This document shows positions 8,459-47,089 of a stretch of DNA of 64,000 bases, piece by piece. The position numbers and the translations under genes are program-made. The notes under the pieces were generated by a model. It saw only the letters and a list, made by a program, of their open reading frames with translations, did not search any database and was not told where the DNA came from. The stretch comes from Flavobacterium cucumis (GTDB lineage: Bacteria > Bacteroidota > Bacteroidia > Flavobacteriales > Flavobacteriaceae). Within the stretch, counting starts at the first letter, position 1. The number at the start of each line of letters is the position of its first letter. The stretch covers positions 806,001-870,000 of the forward strand of contig NZ_FRYK01000001.1 of assembly GCF_900148835.1 (NCBI RefSeq). Reading direction: 5' to 3'.

Positions 8459-8483
8459 GTCATGCTGAAATTTTTCAGCATCT
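8459..8483. repeat. GTCATGCTG-type intergenic palindrome
   Basis: GTCATGCTGAAA, then TT, then TTTCAGCATCT: a perfect 9-bp stem. It belongs to the same word family as the hairpins around the GIY-YIG genes at 21.8-23.0 kb. Confidence 0.6.
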
Positions 8484-8486
8484 AGA

Positions 8487-19509: not shown

Positions 19510-21783
19510 ATGGAACAACTATCTGCCGCAGCCAATTACACTCTCCGATTTATTAATCAAACTAATAAATCCATCTTCTTAACCGGTAAAGCAGGAACCG
19601 GAAAAACAACACTTTTAAAAGAAATTATAGCTACAACACATAAAAACACAGTTGTTGTCGCACCAACTGGAATTGCCGCTTTGAACGCGAATGGCGTTAC
19701 AATTCACTCGATGTTTCAATTACCTTTTGCCGCTTTTATCCCTGATAATAAGAAACTTCCACATTTTTCAGAGACCACAAAATTTGAAAATCGGGATTCG
19801 CTCGGACGTCATTTTAAAATGAATAGGACAAAACGTTCTGTCATACGAAATATGGAATTGCTAGTAATTGATGAAGTTTCTATGCTCCGTGCTGATGTGC
19901 TTGATGCTGTGGATTTCATGATGCGTAAAGTGAGAAGAATTGAAAAACCCTTTGGCGGAGCCCAAGTTTTATTTATAGGAGATTTATTACAATTACCACC
20001 TGTTGTGAAAAATGAGGAATGGGAAATGTTGAAGAATTACTACCGAGGCATGTTCTTTTTTCATTCGCATGTAATACAACAATTCCCACCTTTGTATATC
20101 GAATTAGATAAAATTTTTCGTCAAACGGATACCGAATTTATTGCTGTTTTGAACAATTTACGTCACAATAAAATCACTTCAGATGATGTACAACTGCTAA
20201 ATCAATTTGTGCAACCTGATTTTGATCTGAAGAATAACAAAGGTTTCATTATTTTAACCACGCATAATGCTAAAGCCGATAGCATAAACGCTCAGTCGTT
20301 ACAAGATTTAGAAGGAAAACAATTCAACTATTCACCAGAAATTACTGGAGATTTTCCCGAAAAAATTTATCCATTAGAAGAGCAATTGCAGCTAAAAGTC
20401 GGAGCGCAAGTCATGTTTATTAAAAACGATTTGAATTTCGAGAAGCAATTTTTCAACGGAAAAATGGGCGTAATCAGTTCGTTAACCGAGAAGGAAATTT
20501 TTGTTCACTTTCCTGAAGAAAATAAAACGATTGAAGTTGAAAGGTACGAATGGCAAAACATTCGCTACAAAGTCAACGAAAATACTAAAGAAATTGAAGA
20601 AGAAGTCATCGGAACTTTTGTCCACTACCCTATCAAGTTAGCTTGGGCGATTACGGTACATAAAAGTCAAGGCTTAACTTTTGACAAAGCTGCGCTCGAT
20701 GTATCGCAAGTTTTTGCACCCGGACAAGCGTATGTGGCTTTATCGCGTTTGCGTTCGTTAAAAGGGCTTATTTTGCTTTCTCCGTTGCGAATGAATGGCA
20801 TTTCGAGCGATGAAGAAGTACTCAATTATGCCGAAAACAAAGCTTCTGAAGAGATTTTGCAACATTCGTTAGCCAAAGAAACATTAATTTTTTGGTTGAA
20901 TACCTTACTTAATTCTTATGATTTCAAAGAATTAGGTCAAGAATGGCGCAATCATTTGTTCAGCTATAATTCCGAAGCACCAAAATCACCAAAAACAAAG
21001 CATAACGATTGGGCCAAATCCCAATATGATAAAATCGCCGAAATTTTAGCACCCTCTGGGAAATTCATGTCGCAATTGCATAAAATTTTTTCCGATGAGA
21101 ATCTTGATGTGAATTTTGTTAAAGAACGATGTGATGCTGCTTATCAGTACTTTTTTAAAACGTTAGATGCTGCCGCAGAAGAATTGTTGTTGAAGATCGA
21201 AGAAGTCAAACGTATTAAAAAAGTTAAAGCATTTTATGATGAATTATTGGTTTTAGAAGAACTTCAAATCAAAACGATTTTACAACTTAAAAAAGCAAAA
21301 TTACTGACCAATATCATTGTAGAAGGGAAAGAAATTTCAAGGAAAAATTTAATTTCGGAAGACATTAGTACTTACAAAATCAATAAGTTAGTGGTTGTGG
21401 CAGAACGTTTTAGAACTTTGCATGCGGCATTAGTAGAAGACAATGAAGATGTTTCGTATTACACCGATTCAAAAAAGAAAAAAACAAAAGAGCCAAAAAA
21501 ATCGACTTACGAAGACACCTTGGAATTGTGGAAACAAAACTTATCGATTTACGAAATAGCAAAACACCGAAAGTTAACACCACAAACGATTTACAACCAT
21601 TTTTCCAAGTTAATTCAAATGGAAATCGTGCAACTTTCCGACATTTTACCAGAAGATAAAATTTCCGATTTAAGAGCCGCTTTCAAAGATTTTAAAGGCG
21701 AAAGTTTGGGCGAATTAAAAGAAATCCACGGCGATAAATTCACTTGGGACGAGTTGAAATTGTATAAAGCGAGTTTGGGTTAA
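19510..21783 (+). CDS. Pif1-like AAA helicase with C-terminal HRDC/helix-turn-helix region
   Basis: A 757-residue superfamily 1 helicase. Walker A is GKAGTGKTT at residues 26-34, Walker B is [10 protein letters not shown] at about 120-129, and GDLLQLPPV and the late motif [34 protein letters not shown] (about 400-440) are those of Pif1/RecD2-type enzymes. The C-terminal third carries an HRDC-like helical region and a winged-helix segment ([20 protein letters not shown], then [13 protein letters not shown]). It probably unwinds DNA in repair or replication. The frame is open 21 codons upstream, but ATG at 19510 directly precedes the conserved part. The terminator of the previous gene lies in that extension. 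Confidence 0.88.
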   Translation: [757 protein letters not shown]

Positions 21784-21812
21784 TTTTTAACACAATTTTT
21801 ACCCTCAAAGGT

Positions 21813-21834
21813 GTCATGCTGCTAAGCATCCCAC
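21813..21834. repeat. Palindrome A of the GIY-YIG array
   Basis: GTCATGCTGCTAAGCATCCC and two more bases. The stem is ATGCT/AGCAT with loop GCTA. The same sequence recurs at 22302-22323. Confidence 0.7.
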
Positions 21835-21869
21835 ACAAAGTTATAACGCATTCATCTCACATACAGTTT

Positions 21870-21889
21870 GTTATGCTGTCAAGCATCTC
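21870..21889. repeat. Palindrome B, left arm of the GIY-YIG unit
   Basis: GTTATGCTGTCAAGCATCTC. The stem is ATGCT/AGCAT with loop GTCA. It is the inverted counterpart of the element at 22238-22257 on the other side of the gene. Confidence 0.75.
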
Positions 21890-21916
21890 ACATACAACAC
21901 TTTAAAAGCCAAAATC

Positions 21917-22228
21917 ATGATCGAATTCACAGAAGGAATCTATAACTTTTACGTTTACATTCTAACAAACAAAGCTAAAACAGTTCTTTACACAGGTGTT
22001 ACGAATAACTTAAAAAGAAGATTAGAAGAACACAACGAAAAACTAAATCCAAAAAGTTTTACAGCAAAATACAACCTCAATTATTTAATTTATTACGAGA
22101 AATATGGCTGGATCCAACAAGCAATTGCTAGAGAAAAGGAAATTAAACTTTTAAGAAGAGATTTGAAATTGGAGTTAATAAGAGAATTCAATCCCAACAT
22201 GGAGTTTTTAAATAAAAGCTTTTCATAA
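21917..22228 (+). CDS. Solitary GIY-YIG nuclease domain protein
   Basis: A 103-residue protein that is nothing but a GIY-YIG domain, as in the UvrC N-terminus and homing endonucleases. The core reads YVYILTNKAKTVLYTGVTNN (residues 12-31), where VYIL and YTGVT replace GIY and YIG. The conserved Arg follows in LKRRLEEHN, and a Glu within IAREKEIKLLRRD is the likely metal ligand. It would cut DNA; no partner domain is present. It lies between inverted palindromes (21870-21889 and 22238-22257), and a broken second copy lies at 22592-22902. Small genes of this type are widespread in Bacteroidetes with unknown role. Confidence 0.85.
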   Translation: MIEFTEGIYNFYVYILTNKAKTVLYTGVTNNLKRRLEEHNEKLNPKSFTAKYNLNYLIYYEKYGWIQQAIAREKEIKLLRRDLKLELIREFNPNMEFLNKSFS

Positions 22229-22237
22229 GAATTAAAA

Positions 22238-22257
22238 GAGATGCTTGACAGCATGAC
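22238..22257. repeat. Palindrome C, right arm of the GIY-YIG unit
   Basis: GAGATGCTTGACAGCATGAC. Its reverse complement GTCATGCTGTCAAGCATCTC equals palindrome F and differs from B at one base. It starts 9 bases past the stop codon. Confidence 0.75.
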
Positions 22258-22301
22258 AACTTTGTGTGTGAATGTTTTCCGTTTAGTTTACCCTCAAAGT
22301 T

Positions 22302-22439
22302 GTCATGCTGCTAAGCATCCCACGCAAAGTTTAAATCCATTTCTTTCACGAGCAGTCTAACACAAAGATAAAGCCTAAAAAATAATTTTTGAACAATCAT
22401 TTTTCATTGGAAATACAAAGAGATACTTGACAGCATGAC
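22302..22439. repeat. Gene-less middle unit of the palindrome array (D and E)
   Basis: Palindrome D (22302-22323) repeats A, and palindrome E (22420-22439) repeats C with one change that breaks a stem pair. The 96 bases between them hold no gene. The DNA after E (AACGTTGTG...CGTTTAGTTT) resembles that after C and G. It looks like a third tandem unit that has lost its nuclease gene. Confidence 0.6.
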
Positions 22440-22543
22440 AAACGTTGTGGAGATCTTTTTGCGTTTAGTTTTAAAGTAAAGTTTGTTTTACTGTTCAGGG
22501 TGTTTCACTTAAAATTTAAGCCCAATTATTCCACGTTCAGTTT

Positions 22544-22563
22544 GTCATGCTGTCAAGCATCTC
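22544..22563. repeat. Palindrome F, left arm of the broken GIY-YIG copy
   Basis: GTCATGCTGTCAAGCATCTC, the exact reverse complement of element C. It stands 28 bases before the ATG of the pseudogene. Confidence 0.75.
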
Positions 22564-22591
22564 ACTCAAAAACACTTTAAAAGCCAAAATC

Positions 22592-22902
22592 ATGATGGAA
22601 TTCACAGAAGGAATCTACAACTTTTACGTTTATATTCTAACAAGCAAATTCAAAACAGTTTTACACAGGCGTTACTAATAATCTAAAAAAGACGATTAGA
22701 AGAACACAATGAAAAACTAAACCCAAACAGTTTTACAGCAAAATACAACCTTAATTATTTGATTTATTATGAAAAATGCGGTTGGATTTAACAAGCAATA
22801 GATAGAGAAAAAGAAATAAAACTTTTAAGAAGAGATTTGAAATTGGAGTTAATACAAGACTTCAATCCAAAGATGGATTTTTTTAATAATAGGTTTTCAT
22901 AA
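22592..22902 (+). pseudogene. Broken second copy of the GIY-YIG nuclease gene
   Basis: The DNA follows the intact gene at 21917-22228 nearly base by base, from ATGATGGAATTCACAGAAGG to the same TTTTCATAA end. It carries a 2-base deletion near 22660 (GTTTTACACAGG against GTTCTTTACACAGG), a 1-base insertion around 22687, and a stop replacing the Gln codon in the WIQQ segment (TAA at 22789-22791). The upstream 30 bases (AACACTTTAAAAGCCAAAAT) are also identical, so a whole unit was duplicated. It is no longer able to code for the nuclease. Confidence 0.9.
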
Positions 22903-22911
22903 ATAACAAAA

Positions 22912-22931
22912 GGCATGCTTGACAGCATAAC
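22912..22931. repeat. Palindrome G, right arm of the broken GIY-YIG copy
   Basis: GGCATGCTTGACAGCATAAC. Its stem core ATGCT-TGAC-AGCAT is identical to that of C. It begins 9 bases past the end of the pseudogene, the same distance as C from the intact gene. Confidence 0.7.
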
Positions 22932-22973
22932 AAGCGTTGTGTAGATTTTTTACGCTTAATTATCCGTAAAGTT

Positions 22974-22993
22974 GTCACGCTGTTAAGCGTCTC
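22974..22993. repeat. Palindrome H with compensatory stem change
   Basis: GTCACGCTGTTAAGCGTCTC. The stem is ACGCT/AGCGT instead of ATGCT/AGCAT. The T-A pair is replaced by C-G on both arms, and the outer bases are kept. Confidence 0.7.
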
Positions 22994-23024
22994 TTGTATA
23001 TGTGAAATTTCGTTGATATCAAAA

Positions 23025-23414
23025 TTAGTTCAACCAAAAAACCACTAAAACTGCTGGAATAAAGTAAATTACAATCGTTCTAGCACCATCGTAATCTTTG
23101 GCTAAACGTTGCCCGAACAAAAGAAAAAGTAATGTAATGCAAGATAAAATCGCACCATAAAATCCTAAACCTCTAATCACTACATCTTGTACGAGGTGTT
23201 GAATAATTCCAGAAACACATAAAATTCCGGAAACTACTTCTAATAGCAATACAATTCCTAAAGCAAACGGAACTTGTTTGGCTAAAATCGTGTTTGCAAA
23301 ATGACCTGTTAACCATTCCACATTGCCTTTCCAGTCTTTAATTTTATCATATCCAGATTGTAAAAAAGTGATGGCTAAAAAAGCTAAAACTAAAAGAGGA
23401 GCAACTTGTATCAT
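23025..23414 (-). CDS. DoxX-like membrane protein
   Basis: A 129-residue four-helix membrane protein. Hydrophobic segments lie at about 3-20, 47-68, 80-100 and 110-128. The pattern LVLAFLAITFLQSGYDKIKDW near the start and GIVLLLEVVSGILCVSG in the middle fit the DoxX/DoxD family (F---G--KL then lE---G). The family is loosely linked to redox and thiol metabolism; no function can be assigned here. It stands 2 bases after holB on the same strand, so the two are probably cotranscribed. Confidence 0.7.
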   Translation of the reverse strand: MIQVAPLLVLAFLAITFLQSGYDKIKDWKGNVEWLTGHFANTILAKQVPFALGIVLLLEVVSGILCVSGIIQHLVQDVVIRGLGFYGAILSCITLLFLLFGQRLAKDYDGARTIVIYFIPAVLVVFWLN

Positions 23415-46943: not shown

Positions 46944-46972
46944 GTACGGAGCTTTCAAGTGAGCGCGATTTT

Positions 46973-46992
46973 GTTATGCTGTTAAGATGTTT
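46973..46992. repeat. Degenerate copy of the GTCATGCTG palindrome
   Basis: GTTATGCTGTTAAGATGTTT resembles palindromes B and H of the GIY-YIG array (GTTATGCTGTCAAGCATCTC), but the right arm has decayed. Confidence 0.4.
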
Positions 46993-47089
46993 TTTTAACA
47001 TTCATCTTTAAAATAATTTTCCATTAAGGAAAATTTCTAATCATATTCTTTTTGCTTTAAATGAATTAAACAATTCAAATTTAAATTAT

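Follow-up and report, generated by a model that had tools for sequence, protein, structure and literature searches.

The locus described here, a small GIY-YIG nuclease gene standing within an array of inverted hairpins, lies in a 64,000-nucleotide stretch of Flavobacterium cucumis DNA (contig NZ_FRYK01000001.1, positions 806,001 to 870,000 of the forward strand), which is referred to below, at its full length, as the window. Its closest described counterparts include two classes of repetitive extragenic palindrome (REP). In REPtrons, HUH enzymes are paired with GTAG palindromes (PMC6006769, PMC3116915). The members of the CGTC REP superfamily, according to Di Nocera 2013 (PMC3733652), carry the tag CGTC, often TGTC, at one end, together with a stem that usually starts with AT and a short loop. 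The same paper records that dimers with the tags outward (HH) predominate, and that these REPs are found in Bacteroidetes and in Neisseriae, where dRS3 is CGTC-1. It also states that CGTC REPs "apparently lack a dedicated transposase" and offers two guesses why (PMC3733652).

The window hairpins are like the CGTC REPs in their tag, in their AT-starting stem and in their tags-outward arrangement. They differ in having stems of 5 bp and a CTC or CCC tail, whereas the published stems are of 8-9 bp and the tail is CCA, and in flanking a GIY-YIG nuclease gene, whereas the CGTC REPs were published without an associated transposase gene. Their likeness to the REPtrons and REPINs of the RAYT (REP-associated tyrosine transposase)/TnpA-REP systems is one of architecture. 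In both, an enzyme gene lies between inverted cognate palindromes of an enzyme-specific type, and there are dispersed copies, doublets and tandem clusters. The differences are that those systems combine HUH-Y1 with GTAG while the window locus combines GIY-YIG with GTCA and has fewer copies, and that with regard to mobility the window hairpins show presence and absence without clean boundaries.

A further comparison is with Neisseria, in which the GIY-YIG nuclease Ssn reportedly cuts single-stranded DNA at a repeated sequence (NTS) and is said to modulate transformation. The Ssn/NTS pair resembles the window locus in being a small GIY-YIG protein with intact active-site residues and a cognate repeat both around the gene and dispersed, and a Neisseria homologue in our data has the same architecture as the window locus. 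The window locus differs in its low copy number, its short stems, its tandem units with a deletion derivative, and its Bacteroidota host. The N. gonorrhoeae homologue is, we infer, Ssn, and Ssn is probably of the same kind as the window nuclease. The initial annotation, made from the letters of the window alone, had called the system possibly undescribed; as a nuclease-repeat pair it probably is not, given the Ssn family. No paper joining GIY-YIG genes with CGTC REPs was found among the open-licence papers that the searches listed. We consider it probable, from comparison of sequences, that the window locus encodes a site-specific single-strand nuclease together with its own cognate target hairpins, and that these spread by way of host recombination and repair.

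Results

Relatives of the nuclease in Bacteroidota were taken from a scan of genome contigs (the best 80 of 433 matches, equal to 79 loci; in what follows G denotes genomes, L loci and C contigs). Of the 79, 58 were flanked within 400 bp by GTCA-tagged hairpins in inverted, tags-outward orientation; among 1493 overlapping positions shifted within these loci, 1.2% were. From 107 loci we took 111 genes, all intact and no two identical, leaving out matches with stops or with fewer than 75 residues; 68 of these had a tags-outward pair within 250 bp and 93 had at least one hairpin. With a stricter tag and a limit of 400 bp, tags-outward pairs accompanied 71 of the 111 genes and tags-inward pairs 22. 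TTTGTCA sites, counted with no stem required, paired with the sequence following them in 162 of 219 cases near the genes versus 27 of 86 far from them. The tag is mostly TGTC in Flavobacterium and its relatives, and the common stem arms start with AT (ATTCCG 52, ATGCTG 39, ATTTCG 22), with ACGCTG (19) as an exception. In a further set of 73 genome loci, mostly from the genus (7 short, duplicate or off-centre loci dropped, genes with stops kept), a pair was present at 26 of 41 loci with at least 50% identity to the nuclease, at none of four with 45-50% and at none of 21 below 45%, so that in this set the trait goes with the subfamily and is no general property of GIY-YIG genes. The second nuclease of the window genome, at C9:767862, has hairpins of another type around it, as judged by eye.

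The same arrangement was also seen in other phyla. A protein search of a plasmid collection gave 32 records, of which 13 were analysed, and a tags-outward pair within 400 bp was present in 8 of the 13 (Spirosoma, the cyanobacterium Planktothrix, Rhizobium CIAT894, Azospirillum, N. gonorrhoeae, Aeromonas, Shinella PSBB067 and Sphingobium) versus 7 of 6132 control positions, the latter taken from 45-kb stretches of seven of the 13 records. When stems of at least 6 bp were required the figures were 6 of 13 and 0 of 6132; a tags-inward pair occurred in 3 of the 13. A looser rule adds Shinella HZN7, making 9 of 13; under it no pair is found for Sinorhizobium K101, R. tumorigenes or Novosphingobium, and Photobacterium has one side only. 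Several of the proteobacterial nuclease genes adjoin hairpins with a CGTC tag, longer stems and a CCA tail, the CGTC tag occurs in most proteobacterial loci that have hairpins, and the N. gonorrhoeae homologue has CGTC-tagged hairpins on both sides. The initial annotation had proposed that homologues be examined for inverted hairpins in excess of background, and such an excess was found both in Bacteroidota and in the distant records.

The type of hairpin differs between nuclease clades (ATGCTG-NN, ATTCCG-N, ACGCTG-G, ATGCTGAGGAACGA, ATTCCGACGA, ATTTCGACGA and others). The arms of two hairpins of one gene differ by a mean distance of 0.111 (68 genes), compared with 0.325 between genes, and the lowest value in 10,000 permutations was 0.239. 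Protein distance and hairpin distance are correlated (Mantel r 0.312 for 93 genes; highest of 2000 permutations 0.139). On a nuclease tree of 93 sequences, which rests on few columns and has many unresolved forks, the hairpin type changes 9 times, and the minimum in 300 shuffles was 33; this count uses 73 of the 93 rows and omits 12 whose hairpins are of two types and 8 whose arms are rare. Among the sequences compared, hairpin type follows the nuclease tree. Since shared ancestry alone could yield much of this co-variation, paralogues within one genome matter most. The F. xanthum paralogues L067 and L090 differ at 2 of 7 arm positions, and the arms of each are those of its closest relative in a different species. 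Among the G065 paralogues, L282, L286 and L292 match their closest relatives elsewhere and L289 is off by 1 of 7 positions; L292 differs at 1 of 7 from its three paralogues, and L286 and L282 share one arm type. The hairpin of L043 in G005 does not match that of its nearest relative. That the hairpin changes together with the enzyme suggests that it is the enzyme's target.

In the window, a scan with the hairpin pattern (up to 3 mismatches) gave 9 matches, of which 8 lie in the array (region 21798-23024). The mean in 100 shuffled windows was 0.22 and the largest value 2, none reaching 9, and the observed number thus lies far beyond chance. Hairpins A to H of the initial annotation stand as placed (Table 1). 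In each, 22 nt long, a stem of 5 bp closes a loop of 4 nt, the tag is GTC and the tail CTC or CCC (GCC in G). The shared stem ATGCT/AGCAT or a paired variant, as first read, was confirmed, with H carrying the compensated variant ACGCT/AGCGT. Under RNA parameters all 8 fold, with a loop of 4 nt and a stem of 5 pairs (6 in G); the stem of E requires a G-T pair, and E does not fold under DNA parameters. Allowing up to 1 mismatch, the pattern has 13 copies in the complete assembly (2.85 Mb, 13 contigs), 8 of them inside the array and 5 outside it, and on the same terms the pattern read backwards has no match.

The nuclease between hairpins B and C is, as annotated, an intact GIY-YIG protein of 103 residues, matching PF01541 at 58.8 bits (cut-off 22.6), and the copy between F and G is broken, with frameshifts and in-frame stops; it is 84.5-89.0% identical to seven orthologous genes. 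The mean ratio of nonsynonymous to synonymous substitution rates (dN/dS) over the 21 pairs of those seven genes is 0.085, which indicates purifying selection and thus a nuclease that is maintained. The residues invariant among 32 aligned sequences include Y14, Y25, G27, R35, H39, E73, E75 and N92, among which we take the GIY-YIG catalytic set to be contained. An AlphaFold2 model (pLDDT 91.6, pTM 0.83) has as its closest solved folds the UPF0213 protein BH0048, Slx1 and the UvrC N-domain, only BH0048 having E below 0.001. By sequence and by fold UPF0213 GIY-YIG proteins are the best solved-structure match, and these matches are weak (phmmer E 0.0062 to 1ywl; Foldseek E 2.6e-4 to 1zg2). The nuclease matches no known defence gene in PADLOC, and a phage origin was rejected, with just two weak PHROG matches.

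By alignment the local array is a tandem duplication of a unit of about 489 bp, and not a set of separate insertions. The distance from A to D is 489 bp. Unit 2 begins like A and ends like C, without B and the nuclease, and is therefore an internal-deletion derivative, which agrees with the original description of D-E as gene-less. The decayed A-type hairpin of unit 3 can be seen by eye in the alignment near 22484-22510. A sub-threshold Rfam match to mir-15 (22239-22320, 26.8 bits against 57.3 needed) spans the C-D hairpin pair and was rejected as a chance fit to a long hairpin.

Table 1. Coordinates of the hairpins, nuclease genes and tandem units in the window
Feature	Position	Strand	Basis or remark
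Tandem unit 1: A, B, nuclease, C	21798..22286	+	alignment; repeat spacing 489
Hairpin A, first of unit 1	21811..21832	+	pattern scan, repeat families, fold
Hairpin B, proximal upstream of nuclease; tag GTTA instead of GTCA	21868..21889	+	pattern scan; offset -47 in 5/6 orthologous loci
Intact GIY-YIG nuclease gene, 103 aa, stop included	21917..22228	+	PF01541
Hairpin C, inverted, downstream of nuclease	22238..22259	-	95% complementary to B over 22 nt
Tandem unit 2: D to E, without hairpin B or nuclease	22287..22471	+	alignment
Hairpin D, A-type, unit 2	22300..22321	+	alignment of units
Hairpin E, C-type, unit 2; one G-T stem pair	22420..22441	-	alignment of units, fold
Tandem unit 3: decayed A-type hairpin, F, broken nuclease, G	22472..22959	+	alignment
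Hairpin F, B-type, unit 3	22542..22563	+	alignment of units
Broken second nuclease copy, frameshifts and in-frame stops	22592..22902	+	87% identical to intact copy
Hairpin G, C-type, unit 3	22912..22933	-	pattern scan
Hairpin H, A-type start of fourth partial unit; stem ACGCT/AGCGT	22972..22993	+	alignment, fold
Decayed dispersed hairpin, same type as array	46971..46994	+	synteny with relatives

The locus has a helicase-like gene (a label read from its translation) on one side and a DoxX-like gene on the other. Six relatives from named records (L054-L059) have the same gene at the same site as the window genome. In these six orthologous loci the proximal upstream hairpin stands at -47 in five and at -64 in L059, the downstream hairpin stands at +321 or +322 in all six, and the number of additional hairpins differs. 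In G011 and G079 the helicase and DoxX genes adjoin without a nuclease, the helicase fragment being only 67-69% identical.

Copies away from the gene were followed in 150 genomes of the genus. The hairpin T1 (GTCATGCTGNNAAGCATC, at most 1 mismatch) is present in 16 of them. Three genomes have a nuclease of 95% identity or more. These contain 11, 6 and 6 T1 sites and all others at most 3; perfect copies number 8, 5 and 5 in these three and at most 3 in the other 147. A second hairpin, T2 (GTCATTCCGNNGGAATC), is present in 24 of the 150. Statements on T2 positions are made among the matches listed and are minimum figures, five of the 24 genomes being without listed positions. In G013, G055, G065, G067, G068 and G138 it flanks a nuclease gene on either side (a broken gene in G013 and G065), in G061 on a single side, and the seven genomes have 4 to 22 copies. 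None was seen beside a nuclease in G137, G140 and G083, which have 21, 9 and 7 copies. Of the close T2 pairs, 16 of 24 are tags-outward doublets, 6 are tandem (all in G013) and 2 are tags-inward; four of the five doublets in G061 have an equal 34-bp spacing with different spacers.

Individual sites were compared between relatives. At 46971-46994 an intact GTCACGCTGTTAAGCGTC hairpin is present in four of six relatives and absent in two, and this site, one of two more distant palindromes first proposed as dispersed copies, is indeed a decayed copy; the other, at 8459-8484 (GTCATGCTGAAATTTTTCAGCATC), is of another type, resembles the hairpins around the C9:767862 nuclease, and has in G159 a counterpart with a compensated stem change (ATACTGAA/TCAGTAT). 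The alignments at three other sites comprised, with the window genome, six genomes at C1:272413, five at C7:30088 and five at C9:999747. At C1:272413 the window genome and G160 carry the hairpin, G158 and G159 have it in decayed form, and G114 and G066 lack it; of the five genomes at C7:30088, only the window genome and G066 share the hairpin. At C9:999747 the window genome has a lone doublet of two hairpin types. Its counterpart in G158 (L238, C14:17950-19050) has a DUF1398 gene between two mixed-type doublets, G066 has the DUF1398 gene and one doublet with its second hairpin altered, and none is present in G012 or G160. The flanks point to recombination between doublets as the way in which the window genome lost the DUF1398 gene. 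Neither at the four dispersed sites nor in about 60 kb of synteny with six relatives was a clean insertion boundary or a target duplication found, and transposition is therefore not demonstrated. The initial annotation had looked to filled and empty sites between strains; presence and absence were found, without such boundaries or duplications.

Other repeats and genes were noted in the course of these comparisons. A TIR-domain gene (CAP12/Pycsar-type TIR, PADLOC PDC-S35) at 5243-6151 of L147, on contig C1 of the window genome, lies beside three hairpins, one of them decayed; it is at the same place in G114 and is not in the corresponding stretches of six other relatives, that of G160 ending short of the right-hand gene. 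A separate repeat of about 60-130 bp (L148, around 2589-2760) has many matches in intergenic-looking DNA of these genomes, and at one site it is joined to a hairpin. Another subgroup of small GIY-YIG genes shows a link to tRNA genes. It forms seven tandem copies with a period of about 374 bp in G138 (C1:1850622-1853111, L299), where tRNA-like sequence is repeated in the units seen, and one copy in the window genome (C8:24306, L151) stands among duplicated tRNA pieces; neither L299 nor L151 has a GTCA hairpin pair.

Discussion

Our results are best accounted for, probably, by a nuclease that acts on hairpins of its own type. The enzyme would recognise the tagged hairpin cognate to it, with single-stranded DNA (replication gaps or incoming DNA) as the most likely substrate, and would hydrolyse the strand there, as Neisseria Ssn is said to do. 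GIY-YIG enzymes hydrolyse their substrate and, unlike HUH transposases, keep no covalent link to the DNA for rejoining. Because no such link is kept, spread and turnover of the hairpins would go through host recombination and repair and not through transposition, possible routes being tandem duplication and homing-like copying. After loss of the nuclease the hairpins would persist for a while and then decay.

Several observations weigh against this account. The statistics of co-variation and association correct only incompletely for relatedness, and the three genomes rich in T1 are closely related. No tags-outward pair accompanies 43 of the 111 genes under the 250-bp rule, 40 of the 111 with the stricter tag and 400 bp, or 5 of the 13 distant records, and the C9:767862 nuclease of the window genome itself fails the strict pair rule. 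The initial annotation expected hairpin copy number to follow the nuclease, and strictly it does not: T2 stands beside a nuclease in only 7 of 24 genomes among the matches listed, G083 keeps its T2 hairpins without a close nuclease, and G066 has three T1 hairpins while its best nuclease match is weak (E 8.3e-9). The 5-bp stems are weak, at about -3.3 kcal/mol for DNA, so that what is recognised may be the sequence and not the structure.

An alternative that we regard as rather unlikely is a true palindrome-spreading mobile system, in which the nuclease itself mobilises single hairpins or inverted doublets, as REPINs are believed to be moved by RAYTs. The dispersed copies, the gene-less derivative unit, the presence and absence at four dispersed sites and at the nuclease site, and among the listed T2 matches the prevalence of tags-outward doublets with the repeated 34-bp spacing in G061 all speak for it. 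However, the sites examined show no clean empty site or target duplication, the window array is a tandem duplication, the nuclease is at one identical site in the window genome and six relatives, and GIY-YIG chemistry is not known to rejoin strands. Of the REP-like mobile system first proposed for this locus, the architecture, with a non-HUH enzyme, has held; transposition by the nuclease may occur but is not demonstrated.

It is less probable still that the hairpins serve to tune DNA uptake or recombination, the nuclease cutting tagged single-stranded DNA during natural transformation so that hairpin placement modulates gene exchange. The CGTC-tagged hairpins around the N. gonorrhoeae homologue and the reported effect of Ssn on transformation are consistent with such a role, but the copy number in the window genome is low (13 in 2.85 Mb). 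Improbable to a greater degree is control chiefly of the nuclease's own expression, whether through enzyme bound at its own gene or through processing of the transcript; the near-fixed offsets of the proximal hairpins in the orthologues would fit this, whereas copies far from any nuclease gene and the varying number of further hairpins among orthologues do not. Finally, a coincidence of ordinary intergenic palindromes or terminators with a free-standing homing endonuclease can be set aside almost entirely: PF01541 also covers homing enzymes, there is a weak PHROG homing-endonuclease match (E 0.0004) and the region's one terminator-like match is at hairpin H, but terminator-like sites are at chance level (1 against a mean of 0.7) and the stems are too weak for us to retain ordinary terminators, the group I intron endonuclease model TIGR01453 scores 20.7 bits against a cut-off of 56.05, no Rfam family exceeds its gathering score in 21600-23200, and the association and co-variation of hairpin with nuclease argue against coincidence, which the distant records already contradict.

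Under the reading that we prefer, of a nuclease with its own target hairpins, the GIY-YIG nuclease is a likely partner enzyme of CGTC REPs, judging from the sequences compared. A wider proposition, which we put forward tentatively and consider doubtful, is that this GIY-YIG family supplies the missing enzymes of the entire CGTC/TGTC REP superfamily. It would then be a second, independently evolved counterpart of the REPtron/REPIN systems, in which a hydrolytic single-strand nuclease, in place of an HUH transposase, drives the spread of its own hairpin doublets through host repair and specificity has switched repeatedly along the enzyme tree. Given the pairing of nuclease and hairpin, its co-variation across Flavobacteriia and its recurrence in one cyanobacterial record and several proteobacterial ones, the CGTC REP class gains a partner enzyme that can be tested. 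Many enzyme-hairpin specificities are predicted, which could be read from genomes and checked with oligonucleotides. The pairing would also mean that REP-like pairs of enzyme and palindrome have arisen with two unrelated enzyme folds.

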